A stretch of DNA of 64,000 nt from positions 67,039 through 131,038 of the forward strand of contig JAKAWR010000002.1 of the NCBI GenBank assembly GCA_021816935.1, read 5' to 3'. Source of the DNA: Actinomycetes bacterium (GTDB taxonomy: Bacteria > Actinomycetota > Acidimicrobiia > Acidimicrobiales > JAMCPL01). Positions 22,443 through 35,545 of this stretch are shown here, piece by piece; position 1 is the stretch's first letter, and every line of letters starts with the position of its first letter. The notes below the pieces were generated by a model. That model was not told the DNA's origin. It did no database searches and saw nothing but the letters and a program-made list of their open reading frames with translations. Made by a program: the position numbers and the translations under genes.

Positions 22443-23570
22443 ATGGACATACTCTACATCGCCTCCACGCTCATAGCGTCGGCAGCAGGACTCATGGTCG
22501 GCTCGTTCCTCAACGTCGTCATCTACCGCGTGCCGCGATCCCTCTCGATCGTCGCGCCAAGGTCCTTCTGCCCCTCGTGCTCGTCTCCAATCCGAGCCTC
22601 GGACAACATCCCGGTCGTGTCGTGGCTGGCATTGGGCGGCCGTTGCCGTAACTGCGGGGCACCTATCATGCCACGATATGTGATTATCGAACTATTGACA
22701 GGCATTGGCTTCGCCGGGATTGTTGCCAGGCAGCTTGCCGGGCTCCAGCTCTCCTCGATGACTCCTCACCACCTGGCCGCCGCGGCGTCGACACCCGCGC
22801 TTCTAGCGGCAATCCTCTCCGGGATGATCTGTACGATCGCCATCCTCATCGACACATCGCCTTCCCCGGACAGCGATCGCCGGGCAAGCGGCGGCACTTC
22901 TGGGGGCGGAGAGCACGGCGGGCGGGCGGGGAGGCGGGGAGGGCCGGTGGAGGGGCAGGGCGACTGGGTGGCGGAGCAAGATGGTTCGGTGCCGGTTTCG
23001 GGCGATCCCGAGGCGAGAAGCAACGTTTCGCTGCCGGTGCCGGACGTTCCGGCTTCAATCCCCCTGGTCGCACTCTGCATCGCCCTCAGCCTCACCATTG
23101 CCGCTTCGGCGAGCGCCGCCACGTTCGCTCCGCTGTTCCAGGCGCTGGCTGGGGCTGCGGCCGGCGCGGCAGCAGGGAAGCTGGCCACGCACTCGCCGGG
23201 CATCGCTGCCGGCTTTGCCGCTACCGGTGCAGGGATCGGCTGGCTCGGATGGCAATCCGCGCTGGTCGCGATGGGGACCGCGACCGCTCTCGGCTTGGCG
23301 GCACTCGCCATCGGGCGCTGGGGCAGGGCAAGCATCGCCGCCGGGTTCGCAACGTTGGGGACCGGCGCAGACGGTGTCGCGGCAGAAGGCCCCTTGCCAC
23401 CACCCGTCACGCCTGTCCGGTCTGGCGCGCCTCGTGACCCTCGCGCTCTCCCGCCCCAGAGTACCTTCCAGATGCGGTTGATCGCCCGGAGCGCCTCGAC
23501 GGCCGTACTCGCCGGGCTCGCTGCCGGGCTCGCTGCCGCCTCAATGATCTTCGCTGCTCCTATCCGCTGA
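22443..23570 (+). CDS. pilD: Prepilin peptidase-like protein (A24/PilD) with degenerate peptidase motifs
   Basis: [56 protein letters not shown] is a classic PilD N-terminal domain; GxGDxKL motif not found. Confidence 0.8.
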
Positions 23571-23645
23571 GGCTCTCGAGCTCCAAGGCTCTGTGCACCG
23601 GGGTCCCGATTGGAGGTCGCCACCACCGGGATGTAGAAAATAGGC

Positions 23646-28872: not shown

Positions 28873-29067
28873 GTCTCGGCCTTCCGGCCGGGCTTTGCGT
28901 GGCTTCGCCCCTGTCCTGTACTCGAACGTCCACCGGACGTTCTCGCTCCTCGGGCCTCCGGCGATCGACACCTTCTCGGCACGTTCCACACTCACCGCCA
29001 CTCCGTTCCCGGGCGCCCGCCGGCAGTGGCGACCACGGGCCGAACCCGCCGGCCGGCCCGTTCCGGG

Positions 29068-33873: not shown

Positions 33874-34587
33874 TCATCTGAAGCTCACCACCAGTGCCTT
33901 CGTCAGCAATACCCACCCGTCCACCATCACGAAGAGGAGAAGGTTGAACGGCAACGCCACAAGGGTGGGCGGAAGCAGCATTATGCCCATCGACATGAGG
34001 GCCGAGGCCACTACCAGATTGATGACGAGAAACGGGAGCAGGAGCACGAAGCCGATGATGAAGCCGACCTTGAGCTGCGTTAGGAGGAAGGCCGGGATGA
34101 TCGCCGACAGCGACATTGCCATCGGGTTTGCTGGATTCTCCTTGGCCACGGAACTCGTCAACGCAAGCTCGTCCTTCCCCGTCTGCTTGAGCATCCAATG
34201 TTTCAAGGGGACCTGCGCCGCGTCGTATGCCTGACTGAAAGACTCCTTGCCGTGCAGGTAGGGCTGGAGGCCGACGTTGTTCATCTGGCTGAGCGTCGGC
34301 GCCATTATGAAGAGCGACAGGAACAGCGCCAGGCCGGCCAGTGCCTGAGCAGGGATGATCTGCTGGAGCCCGAGAGCATTCTGCGTGAGGCCGAGGACGA
34401 TGACCACCCGAACGAACCCCGTGAGAAGGATGAGAAGTGACGGCGCAAGCGTAAGAACGGTGATCCCCAACACGATGAGGATCGAGTCGCTCGGCTTGGA
34501 CAGCGACTTGCCGAAGTTGATCGTGATCGACGACGCCGCTATCAGCACACCGCCAACCGAGATCACAGGTGGTCTCCCCCGTTGCAT
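33874..34587 (-). CDS. fliP: Flagellar export protein FliP
   Basis: LLTGFVRVVIVLGLTQNALGLQQIIPAQALAGLALFLSLFIMAPT; IPAFLLTQLKVGFIIGFVLLLPFLVINLVVASALMSMGIMLLPP. Confidence 0.97.
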   Translation of the reverse strand: MQRGRPPVISVGGVLIAASSITINFGKSLSKPSDSILIVLGITVLTLAPSLLILLTGFVRVVIVLGLTQNALGLQQIIPAQALAGLALFLSLFIMAPTLSQMNNVGLQPYLHGKESFSQAYDAAQVPLKHWMLKQTGKDELALTSSVAKENPANPMAMSLSAIIPAFLLTQLKVGFIIGFVLLLPFLVINLVVASALMSMGIMLLPPTLVALPFNLLLFVMVDGWVLLTKALVVSFR

Positions 34588-34745
34588 AGAGCCTCAGCCG
34601 ATAGGGAGGTTGGACGAGACGGTCCGCTGTACTGCCGAAAGGAAGAACAGCGGCTCGTCCACGACAAGTATCGGTCCGCTGTACCGTCGAGAGGAAGGAG
34701 TGGCGAAGCGCTACTTCGCCCGGTATCCCTATCGGCTGAGGCTCT
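34588..34745 (-). promoter_or_regulatory. 158-bp inverted-repeat structured element filling the fliO-fliP gap; candidate cis-regulatory RNA or MITE/REP-like insertion
   Basis: Exact 20-bp inverted repeat agagcctcagccgataggga (34588-34607) / tccctatcggctgaggctct (34726-34745); internal hairpins ggcgaag-cgcta-cttcgcc and ggacgag..ccgctgt/acagcgg..ctcgtcc. Confidence 0.75.
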
Positions 34746-34756
34746 CGGATGCACAA

Positions 34757-35545
34757 CTATCTCCTGACGGTCATCTCGCGCAGGTGCTCGATGGCGTCCG
34801 CTATCCAGACGCCCTTCGGACCACCGAGTCCGCCCGCCATCGCACCCCCGTCCGGGTAGAGTGACTCGATCTCGGCCAGGTGAACGGATCCGCCGTCCGC
34901 CGAGGCGGCGCCGGGTCCGGTACTGTCCAGCTCCGCCAGGAGGCTGATGCTCTGCGGCGTGGTCCCGAGCAGCAATGTCCTGCCCTCTACCTCCACGAGA
35001 AGCAGGAAGGCGCCCTTGCCGAGCATTTGCCTGCCAAGTATCGTCATCCCGCCGTTCCTGCGGGGTCGTGTTGTCCCGCCCCCGGCTCTCGCTCTCGACC
35101 CGGTCCCCAGTGCAAGGCCGGAAAGAAGACCGCTTCCCGCCTTCGACCGCAAGAACTTCGACAGAAGCCACACGAAAAGGAGGATCACGCCAAGCGCCAT
35201 GATTACCTGGAGCAAGAGCCCCGGCAGGGACACCGTCGCCGGTGCCGCTGAGTGGACTGCCCCGGCCGCATGGTGAGCGGCCGTTGCCGCGTGGTGGACC
35301 GCACCTGATCCCGGCTTGGCTGCGGTGGTTGCCCCCGAGGGGGTCGAGCCGCCGGCACTCGCACTCGCCGCTCCGGGCGGGGATGCGGCACCGGCGGTAC
35401 TTGCAGCGGGCTGTGCGGGCGAGTGCAGTGCGGTCTCAGGCGTAGAGGCAGTTGACGCCGGCGTCGCCGGAGGCGTTGCGGCCGACGCCGTTGCCGGCGT
35501 CGTAGACGATACGGTTGCGGGGGGTACCGGCGCTGCGGCTGTCAT
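34757..35545 (-). CDS. fliO: FliO-like flagellar biosynthesis protein with Ala/Thr/Pro-rich N-terminus
   Basis: Single TM LLLQVIMALGVILLFVWLLSKFLRSK followed by LGRQMLGKGAFLLLVEVEGRTLLLGTTPQSISLLAEL. Confidence 0.85.
   Translation of the reverse strand: MTAAAPVPPATVSSTTPATASAATPPATPASTASTPETALHSPAQPAASTAGAASPPGAASASAGGSTPSGATTAAKPGSGAVHHAATAAHHAAGAVHSAAPATVSLPGLLLQVIMALGVILLFVWLLSKFLRSKAGSGLLSGLALGTGSRARAGGGTTRPRRNGGMTILGRQMLGKGAFLLLVEVEGRTLLLGTTPQSISLLAELDSTGPGAASADGGSVHLAEIESLYPDGGAMAGGLGGPKGVWIADAIEHLREMTVRR

Follow-up and report, generated by a model that had tools for sequence, protein, structure and literature searches.

Organization of the fliO-fliP gap

The window analysed is a 64,000-nt stretch of DNA from an Acidimicrobiales bacterium, in which fliO and fliP follow each other on the minus strand within a co-directional flagellar operon. 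An element bounded by inverted repeats lies between the two genes, and the features of the locus are as follows.

33874..34566, minus strand: fliP, with likely start GTG 34566 (PF00813 FliP, 217.7 bits; N-terminus aligns with relatives)
34574..34580, minus strand: likely fliP Shine-Dalgarno (SD) sequence GGGGGAG, outside the element (anti-SD pairing; positioned as the SD in relatives)
34588..34607, plus strand: TIR arm; the family TIR GAGCCTCAGCSGATAGGG begins at 34589
34589..34744, no strand assigned: very probable MITE copy, two-unit form, 156 bp, with ends defined by the family TIR
34620..34645, plus strand: internal unit, copy 1 (26-nt direct repeat)
34672..34697, plus strand: internal unit, copy 2, 52 bp beyond copy 1
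34702..34720, no strand assigned: internal hairpin GGCGAAG/CTTCGCC, common to other copies
34726..34745, minus strand: opposite TIR arm, exact complement of the other arm
34757..35545, minus strand: fliO (PF04347 FliO, 44.9 bits)

The inverted repeat (34588-34607/34726-34745) is exact over 20 nt, i.e. 100% complementary, with 118 nt between the arms, as an earlier note made from the letters of this DNA had described. Two interior features named in that note were likewise recovered, namely the direct repeat with a period of 52 bp (88% identity between the 26-nt units at 34620 and 34672) and the 7-bp hairpin. The element is flanked by ATA and TCG, that is, no intact target duplication is present, and the insertion is therefore either old or has had one flank altered by recombination.

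Folding of the region, a check proposed in the earlier note, gave -99.8 kcal/mol for the minus-strand RNA (211-nt piece), which is far more stable than dinucleotide shuffles (-74.6 +/- 5.1 kcal/mol; z -5.0; none of 200 shuffles equally good). The suggested extension of the stem by AUGCA/UGCAU pairing was present in the minimum-energy structure of this piece, but the AUG at 34587 was mostly unpaired (0.79) when folded in a 401-nt context. Since other copies of the element fold equally well per base (-0.47 to -0.65 kcal/mol, compared to -0.54 for the fliO-fliP copy), the strong predicted fold is a property of the whole dispersed family described below.

A dispersed family of elements in the host genome

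The search for dispersed copies that the earlier note had recommended was carried out on the host assembly (2.32 Mb, 18 contigs, 85.5% complete) and yielded many further matches at 84-93% identity, several of which span most or all of the element; one copy (G000:C13:150200) is 92% identical over the full length. The 18-nt terminal sequence was found at 101 sites when up to three mismatches were allowed, a count that takes in single and decayed ends, against 7 for a reversed-pattern control. Paired ends delimit discrete elements of 104, 156, 162, 270-273 and 318 bp, together with some others; the paired forms span 104 to 366 bp, most being 104-318 bp, and carry no transposase gene. The interior is modular: the 156-bp form corresponds to the 104-bp form plus one extra 52-bp unit, the number of 26-nt units varies among copies (1, 2 or 3), and the 162- and 273-bp forms combine the same ends with a different interior. 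When genes were called crudely from codon usage, 30 of the 34 paired copies fell between genes and one inside an ORF, while the other three could not be assigned. In short size, lack of a transposase gene, family TIRs, and many dispersed, mostly intergenic copies, the family has the attributes of a MITE.

Sequences related to the family also occur elsewhere in the window. A decayed one-ended copy of 37 bp at 11320-11356 matches one end of the 156-bp form at 95% identity, and a lone 17-bp match to the terminus at 23559-23575 is possibly a solo end. Directly downstream of a putative thiC-like gene, a 75-bp piece without TIRs (28877-28951) shows 98.7% identity to the interior of the 273-bp form, and this interior may be a repeat in its own right.

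The trinucleotides next to 51 distinct paired elements, drawn from several genomes, are for the most part TTA or TAA, with TCA/TGA in a few cases. Identical 3-bp flanks were seen in 19 of these elements, while 2000 random re-pairings averaged 9.1 and never exceeded 18. Target-site duplication was found in this way for the family as a whole, though not intact at the fliO-fliP copy. Several paired copies of the host genome (within L030-L103) have reverse-complementary flanks (TAA...TTA) rather than direct repeats, a pattern that recombination between copies or the exchange of one flank would produce.

Relatives of the family and IS5-type insertion sequences

The TIR was detected in 7 of 119 genomes (control, 0), that is, in the host genome, in five others of the same family (all five sampled) and in one genome, G048, belonging to a different family within the order. 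Plasmid and phage collections contained no match to the element, and viral contigs none to the TIR. In addition to the MITE, G048 carries a DDE transposase gene within an element of ~1 kb with ends GAGGCTCAGCGGATAGG... and GAGACCGCGCGGATAGG...; the transposase matches Pfam PF01609 and is assigned to the IS5 family by NCBIfam NF033580 (124.5 bits, cut-off 110). Further insertion sequences of ~1 kb in relatives from the order (L190, L191, L195 and L196) have ends such as GAGGCTCAGCGGATAGGTAG/GAGGCCGCGCGGATAGGTGG and flanks TTA/TTA or TAA/TAA. TIRs are shared between the MITE and the IS5-family insertion sequences L183/L189, L190, L191, L195 and L196 of related genomes; the common part is only the outer ~17 bp, where L189-L191, L195 and L196 have the GAGNCTCAGCGGATAGG ends of the MITE. 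The MITE differs from the IS5-family elements in lacking a transposase and in its size (mostly 104-318 bp), and resembles them at the ends only. IS1237 from Leifsonia xyli, an actinobacterial insertion sequence of the IS5 family, has GAG... ends and the target TTA (TAA) (PMC2516522); like the ~1-kb insertion sequences of the relatives, it shares with the MITE the GAG... termini and the 3-bp TTA/TAA target.

No IS5-type transposase was found in the host genome when searched with PF01609, PF13340 and the G048 transposase. The autonomous partner may have been lost, or may merely be unassembled, since the host assembly is 85.5% complete. Two genomes of different families share an identical 2043-bp stretch that includes an IS5-type transposase (L188, G090:C80, and L189, G048:C15), which represents either a recent transfer or a binning/contamination artefact.

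The start of fliP

The earlier note had placed the fliP start at ATG 34587 and taken the GAGG within the arm as the only SD-like sequence. There is, however, a second one, GGGGGAG (34574-34580), located outside the element; after a further 7 nt it is followed by an in-frame GTG (34564-34566), which lies 21 nt downstream of the ATG. The predicted anti-SD duplex is stronger before this GTG (-8.6 kcal/mol) than before ATG 34587 (-5.6 kcal/mol, at a spacing of only 4 nt). Moreover, FliP read from GTG 34566 aligns with the starts of its relatives, whereas a start at ATG 34587 would add seven residues that are unseen in them. Both the relatives and the SD thus favour GTG 34566 over ATG 34587, and fliP probably uses this GTG and the SD in front of it, both located downstream of the element. 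In the 401-nt RNA, the predicted unpaired probability was 0.27 with the element and 0.22 without it for the SD, and 0.32 and 0.33, respectively, for the GTG. The element is thus predicted neither to mask nor to expose the likely start.

The fliO-fliP site was compared with that of relatives outside the host's genus. In two of these, from the same family (G001 and G002), fliP comes almost immediately after fliO with no element between them, so that the stem sought in homologous gaps is absent there; the motif GGGAGG(T)ACCGAACATG stands at the place of GGGGGAGACCACCTGTG in the host. Upstream of fliP, the element was not seen in the remaining relatives either.

Origin and possible role of the element

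Taken together, these data make it very likely that the element is an IS5-family-type MITE that was inserted in trans into the fliO-fliP gap, with fliP being read downstream of it. It is regarded as a non-autonomous MITE because its ends and TTA/TAA targets match those of IS5-family insertion sequences and no transposase was found in the host genome. We infer that an IS5-family transposase acting in trans would have recognised the GAGCCTCAGCSGATAGGG ends and mobilised the element, which would have inserted at a TNA-type target (mostly TTA/TAA) when the fliO-fliP gap was still short, in an ancestor of the host lineage. The insertion would have widened the gap, and translational coupling between fliO and fliP was probably lost as the gap now measures 190 nt. 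It would also have placed a long perfect stem in the polycistronic mRNA, i.e. a candidate RNase III site comparable to those of the Correia/nemis elements of Neisseria.

Transcripts are cut by RNase III at Correia TIRs (PMC10969869). Correia/nemis elements and the MITE are alike in being short, TIR-bounded, non-coding, present in many copies and co-transcribable, with a long stem, but they differ in host and sequence, and RNase III cutting, shown for Correia, is only presumed for the MITE. BOX elements of Streptococcus pneumoniae (PMC3049150) are modular like the MITE, with fixed ends and variable internal units (boxB in BOX; one, two or three units in the MITE). The likeness noted is one of architecture; the MITE, for its part, is bounded by long TIRs that match those of an IS5-type insertion sequence. 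The BrickBuilt MITE of Porphyromonas gingivalis (PMC4596501) also has direct repeats within inverted-repeat ends and an intergenic location; its 23-nt units are in tandem without spacers, whereas those of the fliO-fliP MITE are 26 nt long at a 52-bp spacing, and the hosts are unrelated.

The reading that the earlier note put first, an RNA switch for fliP translation, is a different one. Such a cis-acting switch or thermometer would keep the SD and AUG buried in the long stem until a signal opens it. In its favour, the arm's SD-like GAGG is predicted to be fully paired, and the element folds strongly. However, tens of unrelated locations carry the same sequence with the same fold, relatives lack the element at the fliO-fliP site, and neither the conserved start nor its SD is part of the element, whose removal leaves their predicted accessibility unchanged. 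In addition, an Rfam scan of the window gave no match, and most changes in the arms of the various copies affect one side, 73 being confined to a single arm and 10 occurring identically in both. A switch dedicated to fliP therefore appears extremely unlikely. Arm covariation as a sign of RNA function was itself set aside as weak on these counts. In 35 host-genome copies, arm differences averaged 2.14 within copies and 2.57 between copies (2 of 5000 shuffles were as low), and the pattern of arm changes gives no indication that an RNA stem has been maintained. Equally remote is a REP/BIME-like palindrome or an intrinsic terminator in place of a transposon derivative: the element is palindromic, intergenic and repeated, as this reading would have it, but its ends are defined, its targets are TTA/TAA and its TIRs match those of IS5-type insertion sequences, no run of U is present 3′ of the stem, and scans of the region for terminators and promoters gave no match in either case.

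As an alternative, the earlier note had suggested a MITE/REP-like insertion that was later co-opted; the MITE part is borne out, with an affiliation to the IS5-family type, whereas no evidence for co-option emerged. In such a scenario the MITE would now be a selected intercistronic element that sets the FliP level, or the FliO:FliP ratio, through RNA processing (e.g. as an RNase III site), transcript stability or decoupling. This would fit its location inside the flagellar operon, the perfect 20-bp stem and the precedent of RNase III cutting in Correia elements (PMC10969869), as well as the fact that both arms carry C instead of the family G at TIR position 11. This paired change, though, could be explained by a source copy with the variant or by arm-to-arm conversion; single-arm versions of the variant exist elsewhere, and perfect arms also occur in other young copies. 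Co-option is therefore considered improbable; if true, domesticated mobile DNA would tune the assembly of the flagellar export gate.

The IS5-family-type MITE is of a well-known kind, but this particular family appears to be undescribed, no description having been found in the open-access papers searched. What looked like a fliP-specific RNA switch turns out to be one copy of a very probable genome-wide MITE family, and a false regulatory annotation is thereby avoided. The family would represent an actinobacterial IS5-type MITE with a modular interior, in which one to three units of 26 nt, or other interiors, are combined with the same ends, and which is common to two families of one order while the host assembly lacks its autonomous partner.
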